Assembly: GCF_027912515.1 (NCBI RefSeq)
Contig: NZ_CP115464.1
Span: forward strand, 3,821,501-3,885,500
From: Brevundimonas sp. NIBR10
Lineage (GTDB): Bacteria; Pseudomonadota; Alphaproteobacteria; Caulobacterales; Caulobacteraceae
DNA: 64,000 nt
Direction of reading: 5' to 3'
Made by a program: the position numbers and the translations under genes. The notes under the pieces were generated by a model. It was not told where the DNA came from. It ran no database searches and saw only the letters and a list, made by a program, of their open reading frames with translations. Of this stretch, positions 1-6,110 are shown piece by piece (positions within the stretch are counted from its first letter, which is position 1; every line of letters begins with the position of its first letter).

Positions 1-965
1 TCGCGCAGGGAAGCCCCGACGACCTCGATCTTCTGGGCGTTGTCCTCGGCGACCAGGGCGTCGTAGTTCGGCTTGCCGGCGTCGTTTTCGGCGATCCATT
101 CGCGGGCGAAGGTGCCGTCCTGGATCTCGGTCAGGATCTGCTTCATCCGGGCCAGGGTCTCGTCATTGATGACGCGAGGGCCCGACTTGACCGAGCCCCA
201 CTTGGCGGTCTCGGAGATGAACTCGTTCATCTTGGTGATGCCGCCCTCGTAGAACAGATCGACGATCAGCTTCAGCTCGTGCAGGCATTCGAAATAGGCG
301 ATCTCGGGCTGGTAACCGGCCTCGACCAGGGTGTTGAATCCGCCCATGACCAGTTCCTTGGCGCCGCCGCACAGGACGGCCTGTTCGCCGAACAGATCGG
401 TCTCGGTCTCTTCGCGGAAGGTGGTTTCCAGCAGGCCACCGGTCGCGCCGCCGTTGCCCTTGGCATAGCCCATGGCGCGGTCGCGGGCCTTGCCGGTGAC
501 GTCCTTCTCGATGGCGAACAGCGAGGGGACGCCGGCGCCCTTCTGATACTCGCGACGGACCAGATCGCCCGGCCCCTTGGGCGCGACCAGGATCACGTCC
601 ATGTCCTCGCGCGGCGTGACGCGGCCGTAGATGATCGAGAATCCGTGAGCGAACAACAGGGCCGAGCCCTTCTTGGCGAACGGTTCGATCTGGGTCTTGT
701 AGACCTCGGCCTGGGCCATGTCGGGGGTCAGGATGGCGATGATGTCGGCGTCCTTGACCGCATCGGCGGGCTCGGCGGTGGCCAGGCCGTCGGCCTTGGC
801 GTTCTTCCAGCCCTTGCCGCCCTCGCGGACGCCGACGATGACGTCGTGGCCGCTATCCTTCAGGTTCTGGGCGTGGGCGCGGCCCTGCGAGCCATAGCCG
901 ATGATGGCGATCTTCTGGCCGGCGATGACGCCGGGACGGATGTCGTCGTTGGTGTAGATTTTCAT
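1..965 (-). CDS. ilvC: Ketol-acid reductoisomerase (partial, C-terminus off window)
   Basis: Second common step of valine, leucine and isoleucine synthesis: NADPH- and Mg-dependent isomeroreduction of acetolactate or acetohydroxybutyrate. The protein starts [20 protein letters not shown], followed by the Rossmann nucleotide-binding motif GYGSQG at residues 23-28. About 321 codons are visible; the window edge cuts it at [12 protein letters not shown], which in short class I enzymes (about 339 residues) lies roughly 18 residues from the end. The ATG is only 3 bases after the ilvD stop codon, so the two genes are surely co-transcribed as ilvD-ilvC and share the leader/attenuator upstream of ilvD. 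Identification is firm; only the end is missing. Confidence 0.97.
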
Positions 966-968
966 GGC

Positions 969-2732
969 TCAGGCTTCCTGGTGGGCTTTGGCTGCGGCCG
1001 GAACTTGAGCCGGCGGCGGGTTGGGAATGGTGACGGCGCCCTGCGAGGCCGAGGCGACGCTGGCGCGGTATTTGGCGAAGACGCCGTGGACGGGGGCCAT
1101 GGCGCGGGGACTGAAACCCGCACGGCGGGTGGCCAGATCGACGTCGACGTCGATGCGGCGGTTGGTGACGTCGATACGGATGCGGTCGCCATCGCGGACT
1201 AGGGCGATGGGTCCGCCGACTGCGGCCTCAGGGGAAACGTGCCCGGCGACGAAGCCGTAGCTGGCCCCCGAGAACCGGCCGTCGGTCAGCAGGGCGACGT
1301 TGTTGATCCCCCTGCCCTTCAGCGCGGCCGTGACCTGCAACATCTCGCGCATGCCGGGCCCGCCCTTGGGGCCTTCGTAGCGGATGATGATGACGTCCCC
1401 CTCGCCGACCGAGCCGTCCTGGACGGCATGGAAGGCGTCTTCTTCCGAATCGAAGACGCAGGCCGGGCCCTCGAAGACATCGACCTTGTGACCCGTCAGC
1501 TTGATGACCGCGCCTTCGGGGGCGACGTCGCCATAGATGACGGCATAGGAGCCGCGCTCCATGACCGGGGCGTCCATCGTGGTGACGACGATCTGGCCCG
1601 GCGCTTCCTCGGCCTCGGCAGCCTCGGCGAACAGGCTGCGGCCGGTGACGGTGGGGGCGTCCGTGATCTTGCCGGCTTCGGCCAGTCGCTGAGTGACCAG
1701 ACGCGTGCCACCCGAGGCATACAGGTGCGAGGCCAGAAACCGGCCGCCGGGCTTCAGGTCACAGATGACCGGGGCCTCGACGCAGGCCTGGTGGCAGTCC
1801 TCGACGCCGAAATCGACGCCCGCCTCGGCCGCGATGGCGGTCAGGTGCATGACGGCATTGGTCGATCCGCCCGAGGCCGAGACCGCGACGGCGGCGTTCT
1901 TCAGCGAGGCACGGGTGATGTATTTGCGGGCGTTGTCGCCGGCGAAGACACGCTCGACGATCAGGCGGCCACAACGTTCACCCTCGGCACCCTTGGCCGG
2001 ATCGACGGCCGGAACGTCATTGGCGCCCATCGGCGAGATGCCCATGACCGACAGGGCCATGGCCATGGTGTTGGCCGTGAACTGACCGCCACAGGCGCCG
2101 GCACCGGGGCAGACGGCGCTCTCGACCGTCTTCAGCCCCGCATCGTCCAGCTTGCCCGCGCCGTGGGCGCCGATGGCCTCGAACACCTCCTGGACCGAGA
2201 CCTCCTTGGTGGTGCCGTCGATCGCGGGCAGGACGCCCGGCATGATGGTGCCGCCGTAATAGACCAGGCCGGGGATATCCATTCGGGCCAGAGCCATGGC
2301 GGCGGCCGGAATGGTCTTGTCGCAGCCGACGATGCAGAGGACGCCGTCCAGCTGATGGCCCTCGACCGCCAGCTCGATCGAATCGGCGATGACCTCTCTG
2401 GAGATCAACGAGGCCTTCATGCCCGGCGTCCCCATGGAGATGCCGTCTGTGACCATGACCGTGTTGAAATCGACCGGCCATCCGCCCGCCGCGACGATGC
2501 CGGCTCGCACGTCATTGGCCAGCCGGTCCAGGTGCATGTTGCAGGGGGTGATGGTCGACCAGGTGTTGACGATGGCGATCATCGGCTTGTCGAAATCGGC
2601 GTCCGTCATGCCGGCGGCGCGCAGATAGGACCGCGCGGCGGCGCGGTTGGGGCCCTGGGTCACGACCGCACTGCGGCGATTGCCGTTCAGCGCGGTCTTG
2701 GGGTCGGCGGGTGAAGACGCTTCGGTGGTCAC
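969..2732 (-). CDS. ilvD: Dihydroxy-acid dehydratase
   Basis: Third common step of branched-chain amino-acid synthesis: dehydration of 2,3-dihydroxy acids to 2-keto acids by an iron-sulfur enzyme. I start it at a GTG (protein begins [11 protein letters not shown]), giving 587 residues, a normal length. The frame stays open further upstream to about 3017, but that part runs through a terminator hairpin and a leader ORF and has no homology. Candidate cluster ligands are Cys64 in TPCNMH, Cys137 in VGCDKT and a third in the [12 protein letters not shown] motif. The TPCNMH/VGCDKT pattern resembles the plant and mycobacterial [2Fe-2S] branch rather than the E. coli [4Fe-4S] branch. First full gene of the operon, 3 bases before ilvC. 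Regulation by attenuation is strongly suggested by the upstream sequence. Confidence 0.95.
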
Positions 2733-2780
2733 TGGAGGTCTGGTATCCGTATCGATCGGCGCGTGGCCGACCTGGGTAAG

Positions 2781-2808
2781 AAAAAACCCGCTTCCTTGCG
2801 GGAGCGGG
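2781..2808 (-). terminator. Intrinsic terminator between the leader peptide and ilvD
   Basis: CCCGCT and AGCGGG form a 6-bp GC-rich stem (2808-2803 with 2792-2787) around a 10-base interior that can add two more pairs. TTTTTT follows at once. The hairpin starts 31 bases after the leader stop codon and ends before ilvD, as expected for an attenuator rather than an end-of-operon terminator. Confidence 0.85.
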
Positions 2809-2866
2809 TGTGGGCGTATGATCCTGATTTGACTTGGGTTCAGGTCAGCTGCGTCCACACCGCTCC
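2781..2866 (-). promoter_or_regulatory. Attenuator upstream of ilvD: antiterminator and terminator arms
   Basis: Three arms are visible on the minus strand. Arm 2, GGAGCGGTGTGG (2866-2855), lies in leader codons 43-46. Arm 3, CCACACCCGCTCC (2813-2801), can pair with arm 2 over all 12 bases with one bulged C. Arm 3 also contains CCCGCT (2808-2803), the 5' half of a terminator stem with AGCGGG (2792-2787), followed directly by six T (2786-2781). Pairing 2:3 and the terminator are therefore mutually exclusive, the classic logic of ribosome-mediated attenuation. The ilvD start lies about 48 bases beyond the T-run. Pairings are read from the sequence; function is inferred. Confidence 0.85.
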
Positions 2867-2992
2867 GGAGAGCAGCACAAGGAGTACGCTGAGAATAAGG
2901 GTAGTGGCCCCGACGATCCGGGTGTCTGCACGAGCGACCGCAGCGGCCTGGGCCGCCCGGCGTCCGGGGTACTGGCGATGGGTTTGGGTCAC
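2840..2992 (-). CDS. Probable ilv leader peptide (50 aa)
   Basis: A GTG-initiated ORF of 50 codons with an AGGAG ribosome-binding site 6 bases upstream, ending in TGA. Residues 26-41 ([16 protein letters not shown]) contain eleven Ile/Val/Leu, and nine of the ten residues 32-41 are branched-chain. It ends 31 bases before the terminator hairpin, and its last codons form the antiterminator arm. This is what a control peptide for a branched-chain amino-acid operon should look like: stalling at residues 32-41 would leave arm 2 free and prevent termination. It is longer than the classical enterobacterial leaders. The alternative is a small single-span membrane protein, since residues 26-45 would also make a transmembrane helix; the two roles need not exclude each other. 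Confidence 0.75.
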
Positions 2993-3014
2993 GGCCCGCT
3001 CCTGATTTCCCCGG

Positions 3015-3044
3015 CATATAGCCTTAATCGGAGCCCCCGCACAA
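3015..3044 (-). promoter_or_regulatory. Candidate promoter of the ilv leader-ilvD-ilvC operon
   Basis: On the minus strand TTGTGC (3044-3039) and TATATG (3020-3015) are separated by 18 bases. Transcription would start near 3008, just upstream of the AGGAG site and the leader GTG at 2992. The -35 match is partial, so this is a moderate-confidence call supported by its position. Confidence 0.5.
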
Positions 3045-3052
3045 GAAGGTTA

Positions 3053-3067
3053 TGGAATAATATTCCA
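3053..3067. promoter_or_regulatory. 15-bp perfect palindrome upstream of the ilv promoter
   Basis: TGGAATAATATTCCA reads identically on both strands around a central A. It sits 8 bases upstream of the predicted -35 element of the ilv leader operon in otherwise GC-rich DNA, which suits a dimeric activator or an Lrp-like regulator. No regulator can be assigned from the sequence. Confidence 0.45.
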
Positions 3068-3204: not shown

Positions 3205-3705
3205 TCAGCGATCGAAGCGCATGACCTGGGCCTGGGTGCCGGGTCGGAACAGGACGGTGCGGGTCACATCGCCCACCCGGACGTTGACCTGCATCTCCAT
3301 GTCGTCATGGACATCGGAGAAGAAGTCCTGATCGACGCGCACCTCGCTCACCGGGCCCGCCGCACGCTCACCGGCGAAGTCGATGCGGACGTTGTCGCCG
3401 GCCAGGGTCTCGCCTGTCAGATGCAGGGCGACGGTCACGCCATCGACGTCGATCCGGAAACGCTCGCCCAGATGGGCCTGGAGCGCGGCCAGGGCCTCGG
3501 GGTCATCCAGCGAGGGCTGTTCGTTCGGAGCCAGCACGGTCAGCGCGGGCTCGACGTCGTGGGCATAGAATCGGTGCGTGACCGCAACGACACCTGTGGC
3601 CGGATCGATCTCCACCACCGTCAGTCCCGAGTTGCCGCGATGTGCAGCGGCGGGGCTGGCCAGGACCAGAAACGTGGCGGCCAGCGCTGTCGCCAGCCGC
3701 ATCAT
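3205..3705 (-). CDS. Exported protein, DUF6702-like
   Basis: A 166-residue protein with a clear signal peptide (MMRLATALAATFLVLASPAAA) and no other membrane span. The mature part includes VTHRFYAHDVEPAL near the start and an acidic, beta-rich body, resembling the DUF6702 group of secreted proteins often found beside peptidase genes. No catalytic motif is visible. Its start codon overlaps the stop of the upstream M1 peptidase gene by 4 bases (ATGA), so it is translationally coupled to the peptidase and probably works with it in the periplasm or at the surface. The molecular function is unknown. Confidence 0.65.
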   Translation of the reverse strand: MMRLATALAATFLVLASPAAAHRGNSGLTVVEIDPATGVVAVTHRFYAHDVEPALTVLAPNEQPSLDDPEALAALQAHLGERFRIDVDGVTVALHLTGETLAGDNVRIDFAGERAAGPVSEVRVDQDFFSDVHDDMEMQVNVRVGDVTRTVLFRPGTQAQVMRFDR

Positions 3706-6110
3706 GGACGCGCCGCCGGTCTCGGCGCATCACGCACGGCCGTCGAGTCAGGGCTGACCTCGACGTCCGAGTCGCGCATGCGGTTCGGCGCGGGCGGCGG
3801 CGGGGCACCGAGGGTGAAGGTCTGTTCGTCGATCCGGCGCGGGAAATAGTTGTTCACCCGCACGGCGTCGGCGGTCTCCCACAGGGGATCCAGTTCGGCC
3901 GAGACCAGGGTCTTGTTCGACACATACTGCCAGATCACCGACTGGCTGTTGCGGCGCCAGACCTCAGCGGCGACCCGCACCGTTTCGGTCGTGCCGTCGT
4001 CCCAGGTCATCTTGACGATGACCGGCATGACCACGCCGCCGACATTGCGGAAGGTGAAGCGATAGATGTTGTCGGTAAAGCCTTGGGCCCGCCGGCGATC
4101 CTCGTCGGCCTTCTTGTCGGCCGAGGCCTGGTCCCGACGCGCCTGGGCGGTGACGGTGAACTGGTCGGTCGAGTTGTAGAAGTCGCGCACGGCCGGATCA
4201 CGCTCGATCACCGTCTCGATCCCGGCGTTGTTGGTGACGGTCGTTGGCGTCGGAGCCTGGGCGAAACGTTCGCGGGCGAGACGGGCGCGGACGTCCGGAT
4301 CGGTCGATTGCAGCTGGGCCCTGACCACGTTCTCCAGCGAGATGTCGACATGGTCGGTCGAATAGAACCAGCCGCGCCAGAACCAGTCCAGATCGACGCC
4401 CGAGCTCTCTTCCATCGTGCGGAAGAAGTCATAGGGCGTCGGCCGCTTGAAGGCCCAGCGCTGGGAATATTCACGGAAGGCCCGGTCGAACAGCTCGCGC
4501 CCCAGGACGGTCTCGCGCAGCACGACAAGGGCCGTCGCCGGCTTGCCATAGGCGTTGTTGCCGAACTGGAGCACCGAATCCGACTGGGTCATGATCGGCA
4601 CCTGATCCTGGCTGACCATGTATTCGACGATGTCGCGCGGTTCGCCTCGCGACGGGAAGTTCGGATCCCAGAGCTTCTGCGCGATGTATTGCAGGAAGCT
4701 GTTCAGCCCCTCGTCCATCCAGGTCCACTGACGTTCGTCGGAATTGATGACCATCGGGAAATAGATGTGGCCCACCTCATGGATGACGACGCCGATCAGG
4801 CCGTTCTTGGCGCGCTCGGTATAGGTCAGGCGGCCGTTGTCATCCCTGACCGGACGCGGGCCGTTGAAGGTGATCATCGGATATTCCATCCCGCCGACGG
4901 GGCCGTTGACCGACTGGGCCGTGGGATAGGGGTAGGGAATCGAGAACTGGTTGTAGACGTCGATCGTGTGGGCGATCGCCTTGGTCGAATAGGCGTCCCA
5001 CAGCGGGCGGGCCTCCTTCGGATAGAAGGACATGGCCATGACGACGGGTTGGGCGGGATTGTCCTGCTCGACACCCACTGCGTCCCAGATGAATTTGCGG
5101 CTGGACGCGAAGGCGAAGTCGCGCACGTCGTCGGCCTTGAAGTGCCAGGTCCGCGTCCCCGACCGGGCCGGGGCCGCCTCCGCCGCCGCGGCCTCTGCGG
5201 CCGTCACGATATAGACGGGCTCGTCGGCGGTCCGCGCCTGGTCCAGACGCTGGCGCTGCGCCGCCGTCAGGATCTCGGGGTTCTGGAGTGCGCCCGTCGA
5301 AGAGACCTGGTGATCCGTCGGCACGGTGATGCGGACATCATAGTCGCCGAACTCGAGCGTGAACTCGCCCGAGCCCAGGAACTGGGCGTTATGCCAGCCC
5401 TCATAGTCGGAATAGACCGCCAGTCGGGGGAACCATTGGGCCGCCAGGAAGATGCAGTTGCCGTCCTCGCCCGCCTTGGTGAAACACTCATAGCCGCTGC
5501 GTCCGCCAACGACGTTCGTCTCGGGCATGGGCAGGGTGAAATCCAGGGTGAAGCTGTAGGTCTCGCCGGTCTTCAGCGGCGTCGGCAGTTCCAGCCGCAG
5601 CATGGAGTCCACGATCGTGAACGGCACGTCCGCGCCGTCCGGGCCGGTGATCTTCAGGTCGTTGAAGCCGCCTTCCCAGTCCTGCATCCGCTGGACGCGC
5701 AGCACCTCGTTGACGCTGACCTCGGTCGCCGCCGTATAGGTCCGGGTCCGTTCGGCCAGGGAGTTGCGGCGATAGTTCTGCTGGTCCAGCAGCATCCAGA
5801 GATAGCCCAGGGCGTCGGGCGAATTGTTTGTATAGGTGACCACCTGCTTGCCGGTCAGGGTCCGGCCCGGCTCGTCCAGCGCTACGTCGATCGAATAGTC
5901 GACCTGCTGCTGCCAGTAGCGATGACCGGGCGCGCCCGAGGCGTTGCGATAGTCTGTGGGGGTCGGCCAGTCTTCGCCCTCGAACTGGCGGAACTTGTCC
6001 TCGAACGTGCCCTTGGACTGATCGACCGGGCCGACGCTGACCTGGGCCAGGGCCGGAGCGGCCAGAACCGCAGCGAATGCGAACATCGTCGCCAAGACAG
6101 CCAGACGCAT
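3702..6110 (-). CDS. Secreted M1-family zinc metallopeptidase
   Basis: An 802-residue exported peptidase with signal peptide MRLAVLATMFAFAAVLAAPALA. The zinc site HEVGH lies near residue 440, followed 18 residues later by the third ligand within WTWMDEGLN. A GGMEYPMITF segment upstream corresponds to the exopeptidase GxMEN-type motif of M1 enzymes. The N-terminal 300 residues are the usual beta domain. It probably trims peptides in the periplasm or at the surface. The gene heads a two-gene unit with the DUF6702-like protein, overlapping it by 4 bases. A TetR gene lies 116 bases upstream on the same strand, but there is no clear sign that it controls this gene. Confidence 0.85.
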   Translation of the reverse strand: MRLAVLATMFAFAAVLAAPALAQVSVGPVDQSKGTFEDKFRQFEGEDWPTPTDYRNASGAPGHRYWQQQVDYSIDVALDEPGRTLTGKQVVTYTNNSPDALGYLWMLLDQQNYRRNSLAERTRTYTAATEVSVNEVLRVQRMQDWEGGFNDLKITGPDGADVPFTIVDSMLRLELPTPLKTGETYSFTLDFTLPMPETNVVGGRSGYECFTKAGEDGNCIFLAAQWFPRLAVYSDYEGWHNAQFLGSGEFTLEFGDYDVRITVPTDHQVSSTGALQNPEILTAAQRQRLDQARTADEPVYIVTAAEAAAAEAAPARSGTRTWHFKADDVRDFAFASSRKFIWDAVGVEQDNPAQPVVMAMSFYPKEARPLWDAYSTKAIAHTIDVYNQFSIPYPYPTAQSVNGPVGGMEYPMITFNGPRPVRDDNGRLTYTERAKNGLIGVVIHEVGHIYFPMVINSDERQWTWMDEGLNSFLQYIAQKLWDPNFPSRGEPRDIVEYMVSQDQVPIMTQSDSVLQFGNNAYGKPATALVVLRETVLGRELFDRAFREYSQRWAFKRPTPYDFFRTMEESSGVDLDWFWRGWFYSTDHVDISLENVVRAQLQSTDPDVRARLARERFAQAPTPTTVTNNAGIETVIERDPAVRDFYNSTDQFTVTAQARRDQASADKKADEDRRRAQGFTDNIYRFTFRNVGGVVMPVIVKMTWDDGTTETVRVAAEVWRRNSQSVIWQYVSNKTLVSAELDPLWETADAVRVNNYFPRRIDEQTFTLGAPPPPAPNRMRDSDVEVSPDSTAVRDAPRPAARP

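Follow-up and report, generated by a model that had tools for sequence, protein, structure and literature searches.

How does Brevundimonas sp. NIBR10 fit the expression of its branched-chain amino acid genes to the supply of leucine, valine and isoleucine, and how much of the pathway would stand under one switch? The question is raised by a 64,000-nucleotide (nt) stretch of its genome (contig NZ_CP115464.1, positions 3,821,501 to 3,885,500 of the forward strand, called the window below; the genome is one contig of 4,006,378 bases), in which a short reading frame rich in branched-chain codons and an intrinsic terminator lie ahead of ilvD on the minus strand. A first-pass annotation had proposed a complete ribosome-mediated attenuator in front of ilvD and ilvC. 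Judged by sequence and comparison, in which its parts, their conservation, the competing pairings and the rare control codons can all be seen, a ribosome-mediated transcription attenuator very probably controls the whole operon ilvD-ilvC-ilvB-ilvN-leuC-leuD-leuB.

All five sequence features of ribosome-mediated attenuators are present at the locus (Table 1), namely a leader with a ribosome-binding site, cognate codons, an intrinsic terminator, an antiterminator and a 1:2 hairpin. The first-pass annotation had placed every element that it named correctly: the 50-codon leader does have a good ribosome-binding site, nine of the ten residues at leader positions 32-41 are branched-chain in the translation, the terminator stem begins at the 31st base past the leader stop, and the 12-base segment in codons 43-46 pairs with a stretch that overlaps the terminator 5' arm. 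The element missing from it is the 1:2 hairpin, the classical anti-antiterminator. The RNA of 106 nt from leader to terminator folds with -40.6 kcal/mol (z = -3.58). When both strands of the window were cut into 466 half-overlapping tiles of 545 nt and scanned for a leader frame (at least seven branched-chain codons in ten) together with an intrinsic terminator, a single tile was returned, that of the attenuator before ilvD; a plain terminator scan is weak evidence alone, with 1 found against 0.7 expected in shuffles.

Regarding conservation, a covariance model was built from 22 sequences, L008 (the same stretch as L005) and the masked L024 being excluded from the alignment. The window attenuator scores 118 bits against this model, which is matched in 86 of 131 Brevundimonas genomes, with one locus partly masked. 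An orthologous ilvD is found in 88 of the 131, and these include all 86 RNA-positive genomes; of the other two, the upstream region is masked in G127 and ilvD begins at contig base 1 in G228. No match of the RNA element was obtained in the 43 Brevundimonas genomes without an orthologous ilvD. Conservation of the leader frame and the pairings among relatives, by which the first-pass annotation had proposed to judge its attenuator, is thus found in 86 Brevundimonas loci. Codons were counted in 85 of 87 leaders (84 distinct), leaving aside one that is partly masked (L114) and one whose start could not be fixed (L121). The start codon is GTG in 68 of the 85, TTG in 13 and ATG in 4, and the lengths range from 44 to 55 codons, with exactly 50 in 59/85 under a start rule that mildly favours about 50; without the length term the same start is chosen in 81/85, and 57/85 leaders have 50 codons. 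The length, which had been called unusual, is therefore the usual one within the genus. Every one of the 85 leaders has at least seven branched-chain residues in some ten consecutive codons, and leucine, isoleucine and valine all occur within the last 20 codons in 82.

Each Brevundimonas genome with the element has one strong RNA match. Candidate extra copies were rejected: there are five weaker second matches (E 6e-5 to 0.009), one in G212 and four that were inspected (L117-L120), and at these four none of the longest open reading frames (ORFs) is an ilv or leu gene. Further same-genus second matches lie at E 0.01-0.07, of which that in G183 was inspected. Among the 20 loci L121-L140 only L121 (ilvD) and L135 (an ilvC operon) proved relevant by their longest ORFs.

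The arrangement of these parts suggests the following switch. The ribosome would translate the 50-codon leader behind RNA polymerase; if charged Leu-, Val- or Ile-tRNA were scarce, it would stall at control codons 32-39 and cover segment 1, so that segment 2 (codons 43-46) would pair with segment 3, extended by the hairpin at the stop codon, and this 2:3 structure would block the terminator and let the operon be read. With all three amino acids plentiful, the ribosome would reach the stop codon, the 1:2 hairpin would fold behind it, and segments 3 and 4 would make the terminator, giving an RNA of about 228 nt that would end near 2781.

The pairings were compared over 82 distinct sequences, one of them from another genus. 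For the structure made of the 1:2 hairpin, the inner hairpin around the stop codon and the terminator, 95.0% of pairs are standard against 31-45% in slid controls. Here 74 cells, which count sequences and not events, are changed on both sides against 20.4 +/- 8.8 in shuffles (0/500 as high), and four pairs change on both sides against 2.3 (12/500 reach it), numbers that lean to this structure since the alignment was fitted to it; an independent MAFFT alignment of 22 sequences gave the same two compensating pairs, at the top of the 1:2 hairpin and the base of the terminator. In the 1:2 hairpin 97.3% of cells are paired and the top pair covaries (C-G 37, U-A 33, U-G 10, unpaired 2); the inner hairpin has 91.2% of cells paired, its base pair being C-G 58, U-G 17 and U-A 7; and the outermost terminator pair is C-G in 48, A-U in 33 and unpaired in 1 of the 82. 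The antiterminator structure has 86.5% standard pairs against 33-49% in slid controls, and 25 cells changed on both sides against 12.3 in shuffles. Covariation hence supports the 1:2 and terminator hairpins, mainly via one pair each, and the antiterminator less. The first-pass annotation had looked to covariation in both pairings; it is found for the terminator (and also for 1:2), but the covarying pairs of the antiterminator do not exceed those of shuffles.

The switch was also followed by energy calculations, in which a ribosome stalled at codon 36 was given an assumed footprint of 15 nt from the A-site codon on. For the window RNA, such a stall lets 2:3 form together with the stop-codon hairpin, whether or not segment 4 is already present, while only 3:4 forms with the ribosome at the stop codon. 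In a survey of 85 loci, whose segments were placed by simple rules, 2:3 is the dominant pairing in 82/85 as long as segment 4 has yet to be transcribed, and in 0/85 with the ribosome at the stop.

Several results weigh against attenuation as set out here, most of them at the antiterminator. Its covarying pairs number 4 against 3.3 in shuffles, a value that 184 of 500 reach; its outer half shifts register between subgroups, with 31-36 of the 82 sequences unpaired at three of four pairs in a fixed register; and compared with synonymous shuffles encoding the same peptide, the 2:3 pairing is the stronger on average (mean z of -1.65) and falls into the best 5% in only 33/84 loci. In the fold survey 2:3 beats 3:4 at equilibrium in only 50/85 loci once segment 4 is present beside a stalled ribosome, and it wins in 55/85 with no ribosome and in 28/85 when the ribosome halts at the final Leu codon, two situations in which the terminator would be predicted by a simple model; if the window RNA is folded free of ribosomes, the preferred state varies with the chosen 5' end. 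Because 2:3 wins at equilibrium in only some loci, either part of the genus would need a kinetic switch or the energy model is not fine enough. A generic sigma-70 promoter scan, finally, found no promoter and no generic consensus match before the leader. The candidate promoter, with a predicted transcription start near 3008, has the motif TTGYR, which occurs at -75 to -35 from the leader start in 83/85 loci against 15% in shuffles; it may resemble the Caulobacter housekeeping promoters.

The choice of control codons is the most striking property of these leaders. At the positions -20 to -12 from the leader stop in the 84 distinct leaders, leucine is written CTC or CTT in 320/329 cases and CTG in 8/329, isoleucine is ATT in 101/109 and valine GTA in 106/131, whereas in the ilvD frames of the same loci CTG makes up 84%, ATC 95% and GTA 0.6%. 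Together, 527 of 569 control Leu, Ile and Val codons belong to the set CTT, CTC, ATT and GTA against 31.5 predicted from each genome's ilvD (93% vs 5.5%), a descriptive figure, as the set was chosen after the first counts and the genomes are related. The bias is not one of local base composition, because the neighbouring codons are not richer in A/T: 179/187 of the other codons of the control stretch (96%) end in G or C against 89% expected. The same preference is seen in 40 distant leaders from other groups (GTA 36% vs 3.7%, ATT 78% vs 28%, CTC plus CTT 78% vs 30%). The two Leu codons at -11 and -10, which are needed for segment 1, appear partly exempt from it, with CTG in 56/149 against the 8/329 of the control positions.

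As to decoding, the Leu tRNAs GAG, CAG, TAG and CAA and the Val tRNAs TAC, GAC and CAC were each detected once in the source genome; the tRNAs detected there did not include tRNA-Ile GAT. ATT and ATC are normally decoded by one tRNA, so the preference for ATT would not follow from a choice of isoacceptor, and it would need another cause than selective isoacceptor charging, such as a slow decoding by wobble. Should the rarity of a codon determine how sensitive it is, the leader would be a three-channel sensor tuned codon by codon. The extreme codon choice also opens the old idea that leaders pick the codons most sensitive to starvation in decoding to a direct test with a few synonymous mutants.

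One other explanation keeps the attenuation and gives the leader peptide a second role in trans, as reported for the peTrpL leader peptide of Sinorhizobium meliloti (PMC7298713). The leader is long and its N-terminus partly conserved: in 299 pairwise comparisons among 58 leaders of 50 codons, the ratio of non-synonymous to synonymous change (dN/dS) in the first 29 codons is 0.50 in frame, a weak protein-type selection, and no such signal was found in the two shifted frames. Yet leader N-termini diverge widely between families and no target is proposed, and we regard such a role as improbable.

It is very unlikely, too, that an upstream DNA operator gives the main amino-acid control and that the attenuator is vestigial in the source strain. 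The perfect palindrome ahead of the candidate -35, which we take to be a possible operator for an Lrp- or LysR-type regulator, lies where palindromes peak in relatives: in 40/84 loci the best palindrome falls into the -75 bin (counted from the leader start), 6 or 7 of 7 matches are reached in 58% of the 84 loci against 14% of shuffles, and the peak at this distance is one of A/T-centred palindromes (TGGAA..TTCCA or GCAAA..TTTGC). However, one narrow palindrome pattern is seen in only 30/85 loci, so that the palindrome is less conserved than the attenuator, which in the window is intact, with a high model score, all its parts and correct switching in the fold model. As a separate observation, a similar palindrome stands ahead of the leader of the sister genus g14 in genome G124.

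A third explanation has the 50-residue ORF encode a small membrane protein with a function of its own, transcribed together with ilvD, the hairpin being only a partial terminator that sets their stoichiometry. The basic N-terminus followed by one hydrophobic stretch would suit this, as would the in-frame selection on the N-terminal half and the length of 50 codons in 57-59/85 leaders, but the C-terminal codons tell otherwise. In the same 299 pairs their synonymous and non-synonymous change is equally low (pS 0.018, pN 0.017), as expected if the RNA and not the peptide is selected there; they form both the 1:2 and the 2:3 pairings, and the branched-chain codons are specifically rare ones. With this constraint at the RNA level and an element confined, over the 131 genomes, to those with an orthologous ilvD, a stand-alone small membrane protein was rejected, and the explanation as a whole is very improbable. 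Control of the terminator by a T-box-like RNA or a small-molecule riboswitch in place of translation is hardly credible, for although the leader RNA is structured and ends in a terminator, it matches no Rfam family at threshold and its alternative pairings involve the last part of a reading frame that carries cognate codons.

Table 1. Positions of the attenuator, its candidate promoter and operator, and the first genes behind it (window coordinates)
Feature	Position	Strand	Basis or remark
Candidate operator, perfect 7+7 palindrome TGGAATA-A-TATTCCA (TGGAATAATATTCCA)	3053..3067	.	read directly; just upstream of -35
Candidate -35, TTGTGC	3039..3044	-	TTGYR in relatives
Candidate -10, TATATG, 18 nt past -35	3015..3020	-	read directly and alignment of 23 loci; predicted
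Shine-Dalgarno AGGAG, 6 nt ahead of leader start	2999..3003	-	read directly
Leader peptide ORF, 50 codons, GTG (2992) to TGA (2842-2840)	2840..2992	-	homologous leaders in Brevundimonas
Control codons 32-39, CTT ATT CTC AGC GTA CTC CTT GTG	2876..2899	-	branched-chain occupancy by position and rare-codon preference
1:2 hairpin, CUGCUC(UCCG)GAGCGG; segment 1 overlaps last two Leu codons	2860..2875	-	pairing over 82 sequences
Segment 2, GGAGCGGTGTGG, 12 nt, within leader codons 43-46	2855..2866	-	equally low pS and pN
Inner hairpin around leader stop codon, lengthens antiterminator	2819..2847	-	91.2% of cells paired
Segment 3, CCACACCCGCTCC, partner of segment 2 or of terminator 3' arm	2801..2813	-	overlaps terminator 5' arm
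Intrinsic terminator, ACCCGCU..AGCGGGU stem, UUUUUU tail	2781..2809	-	stem 2809-2786, T-run 2786-2781
ilvD, dihydroxy-acid dehydratase, 587 aa, GTG start	969..2732	-	PF00920 and PF24877
ilvC, ketol-acid reductoisomerase, extends beyond window start	1..965	-	PF07991 and PF01450

The transcription unit behind the leader is larger than the window displays. Reading on in the genome past the window edge, the gene order is ilvD-ilvC-ilvB-ilvN-leuC-leuD-leuB, with gaps of 3 bp between ilvD and ilvC, 23 bp between ilvC and ilvB and 5 bp between ilvN and leuC, and overlaps of 4 bp (ilvB/ilvN), 8 bp (leuC/leuD) and 4 bp (leuD/leuB); the next gene, about 155 bp past leuB, looks like an ammonium transporter, as judged by sequence reading alone. 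The five genes after ilvC have TPP-enzyme, ACT, aconitase, aconitase C-terminal and isopropylmalate/isocitrate dehydrogenase domains in Pfam, and ilvB was assigned by TIGR00118. Because the spacing is so tight, we infer that the seven genes are co-transcribed. The earlier claim that the attenuator covers ilvD and ilvC stands in so far as both lie behind the leader, but the unit would be ilvDCBN-leuCDB. The mixture of Leu, Val and Ile codons in the leader agrees with its place ahead of genes of all three branched-chain pathways. A motif search in three further Brevundimonas genomes put leuA after ilvN.

Attenuators of this pathway are said to occur elsewhere in the same bacterial class: Tarleton, Malakooti and Ely reportedly described in 1994 a leader attenuator of Caulobacter crescentus ilvBN, and Vitreschak et al. 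are said to have predicted in 2004 branched-chain attenuators before alpha-proteobacterial ilvB. The latter predictions too came from comparative genomics, for the same pathway and class, and reportedly concerned ilvB/ilvIH, whereas the Brevundimonas element heads an ilvD-led ilv-leu operon. An ilvB leader peptide is mentioned with credit to Vitreschak et al. in PMC1273637. For C. crescentus, PMC4117421 reports a leader attenuator of ilvBN (ilvIH) with branched-chain codons, an intrinsic terminator and a proposed stalling; among the attenuators described so far it stands closest to the present case, with likeness in family, pathway, leader with terminator and proposed stalling. The two differ in that the C. 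crescentus leader precedes ilvB, while the Brevundimonas element precedes ilvD, with ilvB third; the ilvB class of C. crescentus mostly scores about 770-830 bits against about 670-690 for Brevundimonas ilvB. When 30 ilvB loci of other genera were scanned over 600 nt upstream for at least six branched-chain codons in ten, a leader with a terminator of the GGCCC type, not of the CCCGCTCC type, was found in 7/30, and none was detected in the other 23. By its location and, where a leader was detected (7/30), by terminator type, the Brevundimonas element would seem to fall outside the Caulobacter ilvBN leader family.

The first-pass annotation had named enterobacteria as the place where attenuation of ilv operons is established. 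PMC1183508 does name the enterobacterial ilvGMEDA, ilvBN and leu attenuators, but the statement is too narrow, as leaders are reported for C. crescentus (PMC4117421) and Staphylococcus aureus (PMC5794164). By the description in the latter paper, the S. aureus attenuator likewise lies upstream of ilvD of an ilv-leu operon and is combined with a DNA-binding regulator, CodY; it has a 26-residue Ile/Leu leader and belongs to a Firmicute, whereas the Brevundimonas leader has 50 codons with Leu, Val and Ile. The enterobacterial attenuators are alike in pathway and in the biased synonymous codons of their leaders, a bias that PMC1183508 explains in Escherichia coli by selective isoacceptor charging. 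The same paper stresses that a rare codon is not the same as a sensitive one and that rare codons are not always chosen in leaders, whereas nearly all Brevundimonas control codons are rare in the downstream gene.

In the open-licence literature, surveyed by titles and the beginnings of abstracts, no description of an ilvD attenuator of Brevundimonas or Caulobacter was found among the matches listed. A known RNA family was rejected, since no Rfam family was matched at its curated threshold; the two matches below threshold have 19.1 bits against 46 and 13.2 against 50 (E 0.8 and 3.8). The mechanism is classical, textbook attenuation, and its conserved ilvD-led version appears to be undescribed. 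A translation-coupled switch that is absent from Rfam would govern branched-chain synthesis in Brevundimonas and, it is probable, in many of the other Caulobacterales as well.

As to the reach of the element beyond the genus, ilvD proteins were searched in named genomes, and the best 80 of at least 583 matching stretches, many of them metagenome bins, come from Brevundimonas, Hyphomonadaceae, Terricaulis, Marinicaulis, Maricaulis, Parvularcula, Robiginitomaculum, Citromicrobium, Novosphingopyxis, Luteimonas, Dyella, Lysobacter and others. A distant set of 47 loci was taken from 50, without L266 (Brevundimonas) and without L231 and L245 (upstream sequence too short). Upstream of ilvD, a leader with at least seven branched-chain codons in ten followed by a terminator is present in 40/47, against 0/630 other stretches of the same loci; the leader lengths are upper bounds, the farthest start within 75 codons being taken. 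Four of the seven misses (L225, L230, L251, L259) match the RNA model at E 1e-14 to 0.0025, with minus-strand matches within these stretches left uncounted, and the three Dyella loci (L263, L268, L269) have neither leader with terminator nor a match of the model. In the sister genus g14, a branched-chain leader with terminator lies upstream of ilvC in 14/14 genomes.

Over the order Caulobacterales, 65 of 200 genomes match the model at E <= 0.001, six of them Brevundimonas. In two of the 65 (G005 and G056) no ilv or leu gene was seen among the longest ORFs of the inspected loci. Of 15 other order-wide sites, the 11 main ones all precede ilvD (6) or ilvC (5), as read from their sequences with one of the 11 checked by Pfam. 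The other four are second copies in family f4; two precede threonine-dehydratase-like genes (L324, L325; PF00291), and two precede genes for aspartate kinase-homoserine dehydrogenase (Pfam for L322, sequence reading for L323), which may reflect a spread of the element along the threonine/isoleucine branch. We propose, only tentatively, that these leaders form an undescribed attenuator family shared widely by Brevundimonas, its sister genus, other Caulobacterales families, Sphingomonadales and relatives of Lysobacter, with strong selection on which synonymous codons fill the control positions.

In the sister genus g14, the first gene to follow the attenuator, ahead of ilvC, encodes an IlvD C-terminal domain by itself (PF24877) in 15/15 genomes (L300-L313 and L135/L189). 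These ORFs have 186-234 aa (578 was reported for G124, whose DNA reads 198 aa); no PF00920 N-domain match was found beside them on the same strand in the 15 genomes, while the opposite strand carries, not far away, a full-length ilvD of a different type. The lone domain is a candidate for a selected relic or a regulator.

Some minor observations concern the presence and surroundings of the operon. In all, 43/131 genomes have no orthologous ilvD; it is also absent from the ten genomes of the genus that were listed as having no strong match for ilvB, and perhaps the whole pathway has been lost in part of Brevundimonas, with auxotrophy. In 6 of 24 Brevundimonas loci (L014-L017, L021, L023), one in a single-contig genome, the contig ends 560-830 nt upstream of ilvD, and the region there may be repeated or hard to assemble. 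In the window, a DUF6702 gene (3205-3705, minus strand) lies upstream of the operon, and ahead of it, on the same strand, runs a long ORF (3702-6110) that reads as metallopeptidase-like from its sequence.

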